From assembly GCA_031279515.1 (NCBI GenBank), contig JAITII010000100.1, positions 1-64,000 on the forward strand: a stretch of DNA of 64,000 nucleotides. The letters run 5' to 3'. The stretch is from Deltaproteobacteria bacterium (lineage in GTDB: Bacteria > Desulfobacterota > Desulfarculia > Adiutricales > Adiutricaceae). A program made the translations under genes and the position numbers. The notes beneath the pieces were generated by a model. It did not search any database. It was not told the origin of the DNA and was given only the letters and a program-made list of their open reading frames with translations. This document shows, in pieces, positions 27,562 to 44,400 of this stretch (positions within the stretch are counted from its first letter, which is position 1; each line of letters opens with the position of its first letter).

Positions 27562-28740
27562 ATGAACCAAGATACGAAAAAATGTCACCTTGACACAATA
27601 ACCTTTTCCGTCTTCTGCCTCCTTTTGGGTGTGGGCTTTGCCACCTTGCTATCAGCAAGTTACCTGAAAGGCGGGGTAAGTGCTTCGGGGGATCACTACT
27701 TTTTCTTCCACAAGCAGGCCGGAAAGCTTATCTTGGGCGCTGTCCTCATGTTTATCATCTATAAGCTTCCCACTTCCCTGTGGATGGATCTTTGGTACCT
27801 GGTGGTGGGCCTATCCGTACTCTTACTCATCATGTCCTTTGTGCCCATCTTTCAGATAACTGCCATGGGGGCTTCCCGCTGGATCCGCGTGGGACCCGTT
27901 ACCCTCCAGCCCTCGGAGGTGGCCCGCATCGGGGTGGTGGTGTACATGGCACATTCCCTTTCCAGGAAAGGGGAACTGGCCAAAGAGTTTTTCTATGGTT
28001 TTACCCCCCACCTCTTAGTCCTCATTATCTTTGGATCTTTAATAGTCCTCCAGACGGATTTGGGAGGGGCTATTATCATAGCGGGCATCATCATGGCCCT
28101 CACCTTGGTCTCAGGGCTAAAGAAGATCTATCTCTTTCTCTTTGGGGCCGTGGTCTCAGGTATCTGCACCTTTCTTATCTATTCCATAGGCTACAGGGTA
28201 AACCGCATCAGGGGCTGGTTGGACCCGGAGGCGGATCCCTTGGGCGTGGGTTATCCAATCCTACATTCCTTCTATGCCTTTGCCAATGGAGGCATCTTCG
28301 GCATGGGACCTGGCCAGGGGCTAGAAAAGCAGCTCTATATCCCGGAGATCCACACGGACTACATCTTCGCCGTAGTGGGGGAAGAATTTGGCTTTTTTGG
28401 CGTCATCTTTGTCTCCGGGCTCTTTTTATTTTTGGTCTACAGGGGCCTCATGATAGCCAGGGCAGCCACTAAGTTGCCTGACTTTTATCTAGCAGTGGGG
28501 GCAACAATGGTGGTGGGGCTCCCAGCCTTTGTCAACATGGGCGTAGCCCTATCCCTGTGGCCTGCCAAGGGTCTGGCCCTTCCTTTTTTTAGCTATGGAG
28601 GCACCAATCTGGTTGTCAGCATGTGCGCAGTGGCAATCTTGCTGCAGGTGGCAAGGCAGGGGAGCTTGGACTTTTATGGAAGCGAGAAAACTAGCCTAAA
28701 GTTAAAGCTTTCCTTAAATAATCAGAAAGGTGAGAGCTAG
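27562..28740 (+). CDS. ftsW: Peptidoglycan glycosyltransferase FtsW
   Basis: The 392-residue SEDS-family membrane protein polymerises lipid II at the septum with FtsI. Family blocks include SRWIRVGPVTLQPSEVAR near residue 112, the large-loop region GLEKQLYIPEIHTDYIFAV near 255 and the C-terminal FFSYGGTNLVV. About ten transmembrane helices are present. RodA is the usual alternative in this family, but the position between murD and murG identifies FtsW. Its stop codon overlaps the first possible start of murG. Confidence 0.96.
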   Translation: MNQDTKKCHLDTITFSVFCLLLGVGFATLLSASYLKGGVSASGDHYFFFHKQAGKLILGAVLMFIIYKLPTSLWMDLWYLVVGLSVLLLIMSFVPIFQITAMGASRWIRVGPVTLQPSEVARIGVVVYMAHSLSRKGELAKEFFYGFTPHLLVLIIFGSLIVLQTDLGGAIIIAGIIMALTLVSGLKKIYLFLFGAVVSGICTFLIYSIGYRVNRIRGWLDPEADPLGVGYPILHSFYAFANGGIFGMGPGQGLEKQLYIPEIHTDYIFAVVGEEFGFFGVIFVSGLFLFLVYRGLMIARAATKLPDFYLAVGATMVVGLPAFVNMGVALSLWPAKGLALPFFSYGGTNLVVSMCAVAILLQVARQGSLDFYGSEKTSLKLKLSLNNQKGES

Positions 28741-28742
28741 TG

Positions 28743-29915
28743 ATGACTAAAATTATCATGGCAGCCGGGGCCACGGGCGGACACATCATGCCCGCCGTGG
28801 CCGTGGCCCTGGCATTAAAAGAGCAAGAACCCCAGCTAAAGGTGCTCTTTGTGGGCGTGGGTCGCAAGGCGGAAGCCGATATCCTAGACCCCATCTTAGG
28901 GCCTTTAGGTTGGGAGCGGGTAACTATTAAAGCAGGGGGCGTAAAAGGTCGGGGCATCTTAGGGAAGATAAAAGGGCTTCTGCTAACGGTTATGGGATTT
29001 TTTTCAGCCATTGGGGTCCTTAAAAAGTTTAAGCCGGATGCGGTCTTTGGGGCCGGCGGCTATGCCGCCGGCCCTGTGGGCCTGGCAGCCTGGGCATTGG
29101 GCGTACCACTTTTTATCCATGAGCAAAATAGGACCCCTGGGGTAACCAATAAGCTCTTAGCATCCCTTGCCCAAATTGTCTTTTTAGGTGACCCGGAAGG
29201 GGCAAAGTATTTTAAAGCTACCAAGGTCCGCATTGTGGGAAACCCGGTGCGCCAAGAGATCTTAAATGTAGTGCGGAAGGCGGAATCTATCTTTACCTTG
29301 CTAGTCTTGGGGGGAAGCCAGGGGGCCAGGGGGATAAATGAGGCGGCGCTAGGGCTATTAGATAACTTAGATAAGCTTAAAGCCCCCATAAAGATTATCC
29401 ACCAAGCCGGGGCCAGTGGGGTAACACTATTAGAAGAGGCATACCGTAAGGCCAAGCAAGAGACGGGTTTGGACTATGAACTTAGCGCCTTTTTCACAGA
29501 TATGGCCCGGGTATATTCTTTAGGCGATCTTGCCCTGTGCCGGGCAGGGGCTTTGACCTTGGCGGAACTAGCTGCAGTGGGTATGGCCTCTATCTTGGTA
29601 CCCTTGCCAACGGCAGCCGATGATCACCAGAGTCAAAACGCCCTTTCCTTTGAAAAAAAGGGTGCTGCTATTGTAATCCCGGAAAAAGAGCTAACTGGAG
29701 AAAGGCTTAGAGTAGAAATAGAAAGACTTATGGAAGACGGAGCCCTTTTAGAGGAAATGGGCACAAAGGCAGGAGAGCTGAAAAAGACGGATGCCGCAAG
29801 CAGCATGGCATCTGTAATTTTGGAAGAAATAGTAAAGAGCACCAATGCCTTTGGGCTGGAATTAAATCCCAATGGGACTCTAGGGGAAGTAGTGGAAAAA
29901 GCGGAAAGGCCGTAG
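28743..29915 (+). CDS. murG: Lipid II synthase MurG
   Basis: MurG transfers GlcNAc from UDP-GlcNAc to lipid I on the inner face of the membrane. The protein has the N-terminal glycine-rich GATGGHIMPAVAVA, the acceptor-side GAGGYAAGPVGLAA, HEQNRTPG, and the donor-site LGGSQGARGINEA and CRAGALTLAEL blocks. I choose ATG 28743, eight bases after AAGGTGAG, over GTG 28740. The 390-residue length is a little above E. coli (355) because of a C-terminal tail. Directly after its stop codon the telomere-like repeat begins. Confidence 0.96.
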   Translation: MTKIIMAAGATGGHIMPAVAVALALKEQEPQLKVLFVGVGRKAEADILDPILGPLGWERVTIKAGGVKGRGILGKIKGLLLTVMGFFSAIGVLKKFKPDAVFGAGGYAAGPVGLAAWALGVPLFIHEQNRTPGVTNKLLASLAQIVFLGDPEGAKYFKATKVRIVGNPVRQEILNVVRKAESIFTLLVLGGSQGARGINEAALGLLDNLDKLKAPIKIIHQAGASGVTLLEEAYRKAKQETGLDYELSAFFTDMARVYSLGDLALCRAGALTLAELAAVGMASILVPLPTAADDHQSQNALSFEKKGAAIVIPEKELTGERLRVEIERLMEDGALLEEMGTKAGELKKTDAASSMASVILEEIVKSTNAFGLELNPNGTLGEVVEKAERP

Positions 29916-30056
29916 TTTAGGGTTAGGGTTTATGGTTAGGGTTTAGGGTTAGGGTTAGGTTTAGGGTTTAGGTTAGGGTTAGGGTTTAGGGTTTAGGGTT
30001 AGAGTTTAGGGTTTAGGTTTAAGTTTAGAGTTTAGGGTTTAGGTTTTAGGTTTAAG
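29916..30056 (+). repeat. Telomere-like TTAGGG/TTTAGGG array between murG and murC
   Basis: Twenty-two consecutive units of 5-7 bases fill 141 bases. Most are exact TTAGGG or TTTAGGG; the rest are near variants such as TTTAGG, TTAGAG and TTTAAG. The units decay towards the 3' end. The array begins one base after the murG stop codon. The G-rich strand is the coding strand, so the operon transcript would carry it; four G3 tracts with 3-4 base loops occur at 29976-29998, enough for a G-quadruplex. It is similar in sequence to eukaryotic telomeres; origin by slippage or transfer cannot be decided here. Confidence 0.9.
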
Positions 30057-30106
30057 TTTTAAAGCTGATACATGGACTTGGAAAAAAAAGGGATTTTTTA
30101 GCAACT

Positions 30107-31495
30107 ATGTATAGAAAAAAGAGACACATTCATTTTGTAGGCATTGGGGGCATAGGCATGAGCGGCATAGCCGAAGTGCTTTTGAACCTGGGCCATACGA
30201 TAACCGGAAGCGATTTGGCCCAAGGCAATCAGACCAGAAGGCTAAAGGAGTTGGGTGCGCAAATTCACTTTGGGCATAAGGCCTCACAGGTAATGGGCGC
30301 GGATGTGGTTGTGGTCTCTTCTGCGATAAATGAGGATAATCCGGAACTTACGGAAGCTAAAAGGCTAAGGGTGCCTGTAATACCCCGAGCGGAGATGCTC
30401 TCAGAGCTCATGCGGTTAAAGACTGGGATAGCGGTGGCAGGTTCCCACGGGAAGACCTCCACCTGTTCCCTCATAGGTACTATTTTAACCCTAGGTGGAA
30501 TGGATCCCACCTTGGTCATAGGGGGTAAGATCAATAATCTAGGATTAAATGCTAGATTGGGCCAGGGGGAATACCTGGTGGCGGAAGCTGACGAATCCGA
30601 TGGTTCCTTTCTTTTGTTGTCTCCCACTATAGCAGTGGTAACTAATATAGATAGGGAGCACATGAACTATTATAGGGACTTGGGGCATCTAAAGGAGAGC
30701 TTTCTCTCCTTTATCAACAAGGTCCCTTTTTATGGGCTCTCTATTTTGTGTTTAGATGACCCAGAGGTGCAAAGCTTAATTCCCAAAGTGAAAAAGCGCT
30801 ATGTGACCTACGGGTTTTCTGCCCAGGCCATGGTCACGGCCAAGAACCTGGAAAAGGAGGCTTGGGGCTATAGCTTTGACCTCTATCTGCTGGGAAATAA
30901 GGTAACTAGACTTACCTTAAATATCCCAGGAAGGCACAATGTCTTAAATACCTTGGCAGCAGCAGCTGTCTCTTTGGAGATGGGCATATCCACCTCGGAT
31001 TTGGAAAGGGGGGTCTATAAGCTAACGGGTGTGGGAAGGCGTTTTGAGAAAAAGGGAGAGGCGCAGGGCATAGTAGTATTGGATGACTATGGCCATCACC
31101 CCACTGAGATAAAGGCAACACTATCAGCATTAGCTGAGACCTATCCCGAGCAGAGGCGGCTAGTAATCTTTCAGCCCCACAGGCACACCAGGACCAAAGA
31201 CCTCTTCCGGGAGTTTGTAAGCTCTTTTAATCAGGCAGATAAGCTCTGGGTAACTAAGATCTATTCCGCAGGGGAAACCCCTAGCGAGGGGATAGACGCC
31301 ATAGCCCTCACGGAGGCTATAAGGGAGCACGGACACAGCGGCGCCTATTACGGCGGAGAGGTAAGTGAAGTTCCTTATAAAGTAATAGAGGCAATAGAGC
31401 CCGGGGACGTTATCTTGACCTTGGGGGCGGGAAATGTCTGGGAGGCCTCAGAAGAGATCCTAAGACTGTGGCAGGAGAAGAACAATGCACTCTGA
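30107..31495 (+). CDS. murC: UDP-MurNAc:L-Ala ligase MurC
   Basis: The 462-residue first Mur ligase adds L-Ala to UDP-MurNAc. It has the N-terminal HFVGIGGIGMSGIAEVL nucleotide fold, the P-loop GSHGKTS at 112-118, EADESDGSF, and the C-terminal FQPHRHTRT block. Length matches the family. It is separated from murG by 191 bases, mostly the telomere-like array, so coupling with the upstream genes is looser here. The ATG follows a purine-rich stretch with weak ribosome-site character. It overlaps murB by 11 bases. Confidence 0.97.
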   Translation: MYRKKRHIHFVGIGGIGMSGIAEVLLNLGHTITGSDLAQGNQTRRLKELGAQIHFGHKASQVMGADVVVVSSAINEDNPELTEAKRLRVPVIPRAEMLSELMRLKTGIAVAGSHGKTSTCSLIGTILTLGGMDPTLVIGGKINNLGLNARLGQGEYLVAEADESDGSFLLLSPTIAVVTNIDREHMNYYRDLGHLKESFLSFINKVPFYGLSILCLDDPEVQSLIPKVKKRYVTYGFSAQAMVTAKNLEKEAWGYSFDLYLLGNKVTRLTLNIPGRHNVLNTLAAAAVSLEMGISTSDLERGVYKLTGVGRRFEKKGEAQGIVVLDDYGHHPTEIKATLSALAETYPEQRRLVIFQPHRHTRTKDLFREFVSSFNQADKLWVTKIYSAGETPSEGIDAIALTEAIREHGHSGAYYGGEVSEVPYKVIEAIEPGDVILTLGAGNVWEASEEILRLWQEKNNAL

Positions 31496-33553: not shown

Positions 33554-33598
33554 GAAGCATGGACTTGGAAATAAATGGAGAAATTTAGTTTAATTTGC

Positions 33599-33650: not shown

Positions 33651-34880
33651 ATGGATAACGATAGCGAAAAAATTGTAGGATTGGACCTGGGGACAACCAA
33701 GGTGACCTGCGTAGCAGCTATAGTCAATGATTTGGGGGGCCTGGAGATCATAGGGGTGGGCAACGCCCCCTCCCACGGCATGAGCCAAGGCATTGTCTAC
33801 AACATGGAACTCACCCAGGAGTCCATAGTAAAGGCGGTGGCCGAAGCCCAGCGCATGGCGGGTTGCAGCTTAAACAACGTCTATGTGGGTATAGCCGGGG
33901 CGCATATCGCGAGCTCCAATAGCCACGGGGTCATAGGCGTAAGAGACCTGGAAAACCGGGTGATAAGCGAAGAGGACAAAAAGCGCGCCTTGGTTGCCGC
34001 AGAGACTGTCAATATTCCCCAGGGCAGGGTCATCATTCAGAGCATACCCCAGGCCTATAAGGTGGATGACGTGGACGGGATCTTAGATCCCTTGGGCATG
34101 GTGGGCGTGCGCCTGGAGGTGAGGGTGCATATCATCACCGCCGCCATGAACGCCTATCAGAATCTTACCAACTGTGTAAACGGAGCTAATCTCAATATCT
34201 GCGACATGATTTTGGAATCCATTGCCTCCGCTGAGGCGGTGATGCATCCCCAGGAAATGGACATGGGCTCGGTTATCTTAGACATAGGGGGAGGCACTAC
34301 GGACATAGCCATCTTTTGCGATGGGGTCATAGTCCATTCAGCAGAGCTGGCCATGGGAGGAGACGATATCACCAGGGAATTGGCAGTTCAGCTCCGCACC
34401 TCCATAGATTCTGCTGAGGCCTTCAAAGTGCAGTTCGGTTGTTGCCTGGCTGAGCTTCTAGAGTCGGAACAGGTGGTGGAGGTGCCCTCCTTGGGCGGAG
34501 CGCCCCAGACCTTTGACTGCTACGATGTAGTGGGTATCCAGGAGAAGAAGGTCTCTGAACTTTTGGGGCTCATCGCAAATGAGATAGAAAGCTCGGGTTA
34601 CGAAAAGCGTATCTCCAGCGTGGTGGTGACAGGAGGCTCTTCCCAACTGCCTGGTCTTGCGGATTTGGCCTCCCAGATCCTCGCCAAACCAGTGCGCTTA
34701 GGTTTTCCCCATCTGGAAGGGGGCCTTTCTTCCATGGTGCGCGATCCACGCTATTCCACAGCCATTGGTTTAATTTTCCAGGGCTTGCAAAAAGAACGGG
34801 ATCTTTCTACCCCCAGTAGGGAGGACAGATCCCAAGCTGGTATCTGGCAAAGGTTCCGCAGTATCTTCAGATTGGTGTAA
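33651..34880 (+). CDS. ftsA: Cell division protein FtsA (first copy)
   Basis: The 409-residue actin-like ATPase anchors FtsZ to the membrane. It shows the phosphate-1 motif GLDLGTTKV, the SHS2/1C subdomain with RVIIQSIPQAYKVDD, phosphate-2 LDIGGGTTDIAIF, the adenosine motif VVTGGSSQLPGL and a C-terminal amphipathic helix (WQRFRSIFRLV). All features of a working FtsA are present. It is followed 85 bases later by a second, clearly related ftsA gene. Confidence 0.95.
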   Translation: MDNDSEKIVGLDLGTTKVTCVAAIVNDLGGLEIIGVGNAPSHGMSQGIVYNMELTQESIVKAVAEAQRMAGCSLNNVYVGIAGAHIASSNSHGVIGVRDLENRVISEEDKKRALVAAETVNIPQGRVIIQSIPQAYKVDDVDGILDPLGMVGVRLEVRVHIITAAMNAYQNLTNCVNGANLNICDMILESIASAEAVMHPQEMDMGSVILDIGGGTTDIAIFCDGVIVHSAELAMGGDDITRELAVQLRTSIDSAEAFKVQFGCCLAELLESEQVVEVPSLGGAPQTFDCYDVVGIQEKKVSELLGLIANEIESSGYEKRISSVVVTGGSSQLPGLADLASQILAKPVRLGFPHLEGGLSSMVRDPRYSTAIGLIFQGLQKERDLSTPSREDRSQAGIWQRFRSIFRLV

Positions 34881-34965: not shown

Positions 34966-36207
34966 ATGCTTGAATCAAGCAACATCATAGGAGCCCTGGA
35001 CGTGGGCACAACCAAGGTTACCTGCGTTATCGCCTCCCCCGATGAAGACGGAGGGGTAAATGTGGTGGGCATTGGCAATGCCACCTGCCGGGGCATGGCC
35101 AGGGGCATGGTCATCAATGTGGATAGAACAGTAGCCTCCATCCGTCAAGCGGTGGGTGAGGCGGAGCATATGGCAGGCGTTAAACTAAAAAGCGTCATGC
35201 TGGGGGTAGCTGGGGGTAAGGTCCAGTGTTATAACGCCAAAGGCATTGCCGGAGTCAGAGATTCCCGCAAGAGGATAATAACCGAAGACGACAAGAGACG
35301 GGCTCTGGAAAACGCCATCTCCGGAGACATCCCCTCCGACAGGGAGCTCATCCACACCATAGAGCAGGAGTACACAGTAGATAACCAGACCAACATCAAA
35401 GATCCCTTGGGAATGATGGGCCTAAGGTTGGAGGTGAATGTCCATATCATCACGGTCTCTTTAAATGCCCTCCAGAATATCATGAATTGTGCCCGTCAGG
35501 CGGACCTGGAGATCATGGACGATGACGATGTGGTCTTGGAATCCTTGGCCTCTGCCAAGAGTTGCTTAAGACCGGAAGAGACCCAAATGGGAGTAGCCAT
35601 CGTGGACATAGGTGGAGGATCTGTGGATCTTGCGATCTTTGAAAATAGCTGCGTACGCCACACCAAGGTCTTTGAGATGGGAGGAGATAATCTCACAAGA
35701 GATATCTCACTGGGCTTCCAGACCCCCATGGATGCGGCGGAGCTTTTAAAGGTGGAGGAAGGGTGCTGCCTTAGAACCCTGTTGGGCGATGAAGAATTCA
35801 TCATTGTCCCGGGAACAGCAGGTAAGAATGTGGAAGTAAGTCGCCATGTCCTCTGCGACGTCCTGGTAGAGAGGGTAGAGGAGATATTGGGCTGCGTTAA
35901 TCATGAACTGGTGGTGAGCGGCTATTACGACAAGGTGATGGAAGTGGTTCTAACTGGAGGGGGTTCTCTCCTTTTGGGTCTTCCGGAAGTGGCAGAGCAA
36001 GTCTTTGATAGACCCGTGCGCCTGGGAGAACCCACCGGAGTGGGAGGGCTTACCAAATTAATCAAGAGCCCACGCTATTCCACAGCCATGGGCCTTATCC
36101 TCTACGGCATGGAAAACTATCTAGCCAGAGACCAGGGTCCCATCCTGAAAAATGGCAAGGGTTTTTTTAGTGGTGTCAAAGAGTGGTTTTCCCGCTCCTT
36201 AGGCTAG
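34966..36207 (+). CDS. ftsA: Second FtsA paralogue
   Basis: The 413-residue protein is collinear with the upstream FtsA through its whole length, at roughly 45% identity by eye. It keeps phosphate-1 (ALDVGTTKV), phosphate-2 (VDIGGGSVDLAIF, with Ser-Val replacing Thr-Thr), the TGGGSLLLGL adenosine motif and a C-terminal amphipathic helix (VKEWFSRSLG). An acidic insert (DDDD) lies near residue 180. GAGGAGA gives it its own strong ribosome site. Both copies look functional, so this is tandem duplication with divergence. Whether they co-polymerise or take separate roles is unknown. Confidence 0.9.
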   Translation: MLESSNIIGALDVGTTKVTCVIASPDEDGGVNVVGIGNATCRGMARGMVINVDRTVASIRQAVGEAEHMAGVKLKSVMLGVAGGKVQCYNAKGIAGVRDSRKRIITEDDKRRALENAISGDIPSDRELIHTIEQEYTVDNQTNIKDPLGMMGLRLEVNVHIITVSLNALQNIMNCARQADLEIMDDDDVVLESLASAKSCLRPEETQMGVAIVDIGGGSVDLAIFENSCVRHTKVFEMGGDNLTRDISLGFQTPMDAAELLKVEEGCCLRTLLGDEEFIIVPGTAGKNVEVSRHVLCDVLVERVEEILGCVNHELVVSGYYDKVMEVVLTGGGSLLLGLPEVAEQVFDRPVRLGEPTGVGGLTKLIKSPRYSTAMGLILYGMENYLARDQGPILKNGKGFFSGVKEWFSRSLG

Positions 36208-36417: not shown

Positions 36418-36470
36418 TTTAACTCTGGGGTTTAAGTCTTGGGCTTAACTCTAGGGTTTAACTCTTGGGC
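36418..36470. repeat. Degenerate 12-14 bp tandem repeat with G tracts
   Basis: Four units of the form TTTAACTCTTGGG (12-14 bases) run in tandem, each ending in a G3 or G4 run. The G tracts are on the coding strand, as in the array at 29916. Confidence 0.7.
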
Positions 36471-36744
36471 TTTTTGGCTTAAGTCTTTTTAGAAAAATTG
36501 GCCTTTTTAGAGGAAAAGAGAAAAATTGCCCCTTAGTTAGAAAGCTTTTCTGGGCCAAAATCCAAGAAATGCCCCTTAGAAAAAATAGATGGCCAAAAAA
36601 TATTTTTTTCCTTTGCGGCTTTTAACACTCCTTTCTATATCTCAAAGTCCGCATAAATAGTAGTTAATATTTGAGGGGCTCGCCAAAGGGAATAATTTCT
36701 AGGGAGGGGAGGAAAAAAAATATCAATTTTTTTTGTTTTTTCAC

Positions 36745-44293: not shown

Positions 44294-44393
44294 AAAAACG
44301 GCAATAATTGTATATTATAAAAACGGCAAGAACTGTTTATTATAAAAACGGTAATAATTGTATATTATAAAAACTACAAGAATTGTACAATAT
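44294..44393. repeat. Four 25-bp tandem repeats
   Basis: Four contiguous 25-base units at 44294, 44319, 44344 and 44369, each beginning AAAAAC and ending in an AT-rich segment (TATTAT or similar). Units 1 and 3 differ at one position; units 2 and 4 are more diverged. There are no spacers, so it is not a CRISPR; the form is iteron-like. Confidence 0.85.
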
Positions 44394-44400
44394 AAAAAAT

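Follow-up and report, generated by a model that had tools for sequence, protein, structure and literature searches.

How did 141 nt of TTAGGG/TTTAGGG-type repeats, the units of eukaryotic telomeres, come to fill the spacer between murG and murC in a bacterial dcw cluster? The window (the whole stretch of 64,000 nucleotides that was analyzed) contains murG on the + strand (28740-29915; 391 aa, GTG start, above the NCBIfam TIGR01133 cut-off), whose TAG stop codon (29913-29915) abuts the array, followed by murC on the same strand (30107-31495; 462 aa, ATG at 30107, above the NCBIfam TIGR01082 cut-off). The array (29916-30056, + strand) runs head-to-tail from the murG stop and is followed by 50 nt of non-repeat spacer (30057-30106) before the murC ATG. 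It is made up of 22 units of 5-7 nt each, comprising seven TTTAGGG, five TTAGGG and 10 variants (TTTATGG, TTAGG, TTTAGG, TTAGAG, TTTAGAG, TTTAAG and TTTTAGG), i.e., 12 of the 22 are exact telomere-type units.

The array in its dcw cluster

A 22-unit array directly behind the murG stop had been reported in an earlier note on this DNA, and both the sequence and a TRF analysis bore this out. TRF called the repeat at 29915-30054 with a best period of 13 (GTTTAGGGTTAGG x10.8, score 171), while the alternative periods of 7 and 6 scored 161 and 130, respectively. Such head-to-tail copying in non-coding DNA was well above chance, since the best of 100 dinucleotide-shuffled 64-kb windows scored 70; shuffles of the gap by itself (n = 500) reached at most 92. 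The array lies in the interior of a 70,878-base contig, between murG and murC, with neither a replicon end nor eukaryotic sequence as its neighbor. Together, these data show that the telomere-like array at this position is real.

The surrounding dcw cluster comprises murF, mraY, murD, ftsW, murG, murC, murB, an FtsQ-like gene (a weak match below the cut-off), two ftsA genes and ftsZ. A second spacer array, built from four copies of the non-telomeric 13-mer TTTAACTCTGGGG, was detected by TRF in the ftsA2-ftsZ gap (36418-36472, + strand). A consensus scan of the murG-murC spacer returned neither a sigma-70-like promoter nor a + strand terminator, and a promoter or terminator role of the spacer was therefore rejected. 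The tandem ftsA genes (33651-34880 and 34966-36207) both score above the TIGR01174 cut-off and share 45% identity; the pair is also present in the related genomes G001, G002, G005, G008, G012, G015, G024, G028 and G032, which largely coincide with the genomes having long murG-murC spacers. In addition, a 14-mer, CATGGACTTGGAAA, occurs at 30071-30084, shortly before murC, and again at 33558-33571, before ftsA1; as two matches with at most two mismatches were obtained in 16 of 100 shuffles, this pair may be due to chance. A 25-nt unit is repeated 4.2 times in the intergenic region at 44294-44398.

Growth in place and repeat load of the genome

The internal structure of the array indicated how it was built. 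The best period of 13 corresponds to a pair of units, TTTAGGGTTAGGG, and autocorrelation was found at lags 6, 7, 13, 19, 20 and 26, with a value of 0.68 at lag 26. The longest exact repeat inside the array is a 22-nt block, TTAGAGTTTAGGGTTTAGGTTT, of which one copy lies at 29999-30020 and the other 26 nt (2 x 13) downstream at 30025-30046 (both + strand; coordinates from reading the sequence). Given that this block of variant units recurs without a change at a 26-nt spacing, the array must have expanded in situ, for the most part probably by its 13-mer, and the second copy is a later duplication of units that were already variant. The earlier note had taken a decay of units toward the 3′ end as a sign of age. 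Variant units are indeed concentrated at that end; however, part of this concentration is the one 22-nt block present twice, and since variant units were copied after they had changed, the 3′ decay is no simple age gradient.

The source genome is a 3.5-Mb draft in 148 contigs, a MAG of Desulfobacterota type. Its nearest named relatives are MAGs labeled Deltaproteobacteria (bins named Gx485, Nc350 and the like), which appear to derive from termite guts, and their family is probably the Adiutricaceae discussed in Arora et al. (2022; PMC9137090). Repeat statistics for the genome itself were taken from a sample of ~0.98 Mb, which has a GC content of 46% (61% in the dcw stretches of the relatives) and is ~26% non-coding under a simple ORF rule. 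Arrays detected by TRF made up 2.4% of the non-coding bases in this sample and, with the same settings, 8.4% in the dcw stretches of the relatives (0.46 Mb) and 0.7 and 0.3% in two control genomes of the same class, an enrichment that is indicative only, as the stretches of the relatives were picked by murC, the ORF rule was simple and the controls covered 0.2 Mb each. Apart from isolated two-unit near-matches, pairs of TTTAGGG do not occur elsewhere in the genome, and an exact (TTAGGG)3 was absent from it. Seeding of the array by an over-represented TTTAGGG in non-coding DNA was rejected, as this word ranked 241 of 8141 by count and lay outside the top Markov-enriched words.

Both mutS and mutL were found in the genome above their cut-offs; loss of mismatch repair was thus rejected as a driver, and no lesion explains the frequency of arrays. 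Repeat units of such length would largely escape MutS. In G001, G015, G020, G024 and G028, the MutS matches are each split into three pieces that share one reading frame, inside open frames 1060-1372 residues long (e.g., G028:C184:7386-10640), a pattern in the sequence that suggests large insertions between the MutS domains.

Fillings of the same spacer in relatives

Positions for both murG and murC were obtained in 29 other genomes of the family. The gap between the two genes measures at least 40 nt in 17 of these genomes; in the remaining 12 it is at most 34 nt or the genes overlap. TRF arrays scoring at least 50 were present in five of the 17 long gaps with a different unit in each, namely GCAAGGCAAACA x5 in G002, GGAATCTTAA x4.5 in G011, AACAGGCGGCCGGA x4.6 in G015, a 19-mer x2.3 in G023 and GGCTCCGGGGATAA x3 in G024. 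An array of GGCGAAA type was also seen upstream of murC in G008, on a contig that ends before murG. An all-against-all BLAST comparison of the gaps found no more than 12-14 nt shared between genomes, and the fillings thus arose independently in the different lineages.

Other spacers of the cluster are occupied as well. Before ftsA1 there is GTTTCCA x13 in G015 and ATGGGA x6.5 in G002, GCCTTGC x11 lies between the two ftsA genes of G024, and the ftsW-murG gap of G021 and the murD-ftsW gap of G032 hold TCAGTCAG x14 and TGAAGCTTTTGAC x14, respectively. Elsewhere in the family, arrays of CCGAAC x12, CAAAGGA x17, TAAGGGC x30 and AAACCC x8 were found. The claim that such arrays are abnormal in dcw clusters may hold for bacteria at large, but the dcw gaps of this family do carry them. 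Telomeric units are one rare outcome among many in the family. Of 37 family genomes, three contain four-unit TTAGGG arrays (at most two mismatches) and six contain TTCGGG arrays, and further GGGTTN-type arrays (for example GGGTTAA, GGGTTT and GGGTTC) are equally easy to find. Such sites accordingly show no specificity for telomeric units, as arbitrary units occupy the same and neighboring gaps in relatives. Our literature searches for bacterial telomere-like arrays gave nothing relevant.

Origin of the array

These comparisons bear on the suggestion of the earlier note that the repeat might have been acquired from a eukaryotic host. Insertion of eukaryotic telomeric DNA, be it from a termite, a gut flagellate or plant food, into the dcw operon would draw on the identity of the units with the vertebrate/protist and plant telomere units and on the apparent termite-gut source of the nearest named genomes, yet it is extremely improbable given that murG and murC directly flank the array with no recognizable foreign sequence, that the units are a mixture of 6 and 7 nt with a 13-nt period and a 26-nt block duplication, that the same slot in relatives holds non-telomeric arrays, and that just three of 395 genomes from the phylum contain (TTAGGG)4 with at most one mismatch, two of these being from outside the family. 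The telomere unit of insects is TTAGG, not the unit of the array, and this likewise counts against an insertion. Non-telomeric arrays at many loci, named beforehand as the observation that would speak against an exotic origin, were looked for in the relatives and were found. As the gaps of the relatives are filled with unrelated short repeats, the array is better explained by ordinary expansion of a repeat in a tolerant spacer than by capture of eukaryotic DNA, and its resemblance to telomeres is coincidental. It is also very unlikely that misassembly of the metagenome created the array or its number of units. The genome is a fragmented draft, and some relatives have contigs that break off no more than a few hundred bases before murC, for G008 and G028 within repetitive spacer; against this, a longest exact internal repeat of 22 nt is short for typical short-read assembly, the variant units serve as unique anchors, and both flanks run on into the expected genes.

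The G-rich polarity of the array and a run capable of forming a G-quadruplex (G4), both pointed out in the earlier note, were recovered in a motif scan, which found a single canonical motif (G3+N1-7), GGGTTAGGGTTTAGGGTTTAGGG, at 29976-29998 on the + (mRNA-like) strand. The transcript may form a G-quadruplex, and the spacer RNA is predicted to fold at -41.4 kcal/mol in a G4-aware model, in which this motif takes part, vs. -34.2 kcal/mol without G4. A plain RNA hairpin was rejected: the spacer fold beats shuffles (z = -2.73), yet the ensemble is diffuse, the MFE structure having a frequency of 0.0002. We consider it unlikely that the array is a selected regulatory element in which a G-quadruplex in the transcript, past the murG stop codon, would tune mRNA stability, transcription or ribosome passage from murG to murC. 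The four-tract motif on the G-rich mRNA-like strand, the gain of 7 kcal/mol in the G4-aware fold and the finding of Rehm et al. (2015; PMC4692102) that, in Xanthomonas and Nostoc, sense-strand G-rich heptamers are enriched near stop codons would all be in keeping with such a role. However, the element is not conserved, as relatives lack such an array in the murG-murC gap or lack the gap itself, and only a single stretch of four G-tracts is still intact. Moreover, 58 G3 motifs occur in the 0.98-Mb sample, so that one more is not special, and in the same sample the intergenic arrays between co-directional genes showed no G-strand bias (mean skew -0.09).

The array is therefore very probably a short tandem repeat specific to its lineage, expanded in situ within the murG-murC spacer by strand slippage or unequal exchange. 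Slippage had already been proposed as its simplest origin, and the unrelated arrays in the gaps of relatives, the 13-nt period and the 22-nt block duplication support this proposal. Growth would have begun just past the murG stop, where coding constraint ends; the 13-nt pair of units probably accounts for most of the expansion, over which slips of 6/7 nt, point changes and one or more later block duplications would have been laid. The family seems to tolerate long dcw spacers, which would be filled by whichever unit happens to expand. The array would then be neutral, with no established function, and any effect of a G4 would be incidental. Some observations count against slippage: the murG-murC array is the sole intergenic array of 6/7-mers in the ~1 Mb sample of the genome, where all others have periods of at least 9, the same-genus G001 has no clear array in the 198 nt of sequence that precede its murC, and the presence of mutS and mutL leaves the many arrays without a repair defect to account for them.

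Among described systems, the array comes closest to the G-rich heptamer SSRs (GGGNATC) described for Xanthomonas and Nostoc by Rehm et al. (2015; PMC4692102). Most of these sit between aligned genes; they are enriched near stop codons on the sense strand and often recur at the same gene pairs across related species, and a Xanthomonas genome carries one unit at ~180 places, preferably as runs of four. The murG-murC array is alike in unit size and place. In contrast to one unit dispersed over many loci, however, its unit is arrayed once in the genome, and the murG-murC gaps of the relatives hold other units. With ordinary bacterial intergenic tandem repeats and minisatellites it shares an arbitrary lineage-specific unit, a location in a spacer, imperfect copies and higher-order duplication; it differs from these in that such arrays are apparently common in the dcw spacers of its family. 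With eukaryotic telomeric and interstitial repeats it has in common the TTAGGG and TTTAGGG units and a G-rich strand predicted to be able to form a G4, whereas its position inside a bacterial operon, its mixed units, its 13-nt period and the absence of a telomerase context and of a eukaryotic flank set it apart.

The array is thus real and very probably ordinary in mechanism, which removes a tempting claim of telomere transfer from a eukaryote to a bacterium; comparison of the same gap in relatives offers a way to test claims of this sort. Tentatively, and with some doubt, one may go further and suppose that an unusual family-wide expansion process repeatedly refills the spacers of this essential operon with new arrays in each lineage, in which case the dcw junctions would record recent slippage, the usual tight coupling of the dcw genes may be loosened, and the telomere-like array would be one snapshot of the process. 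A bacterial family with such repeat-rich operon spacers is useful for studying how long spacers are tolerated in the dcw cluster.
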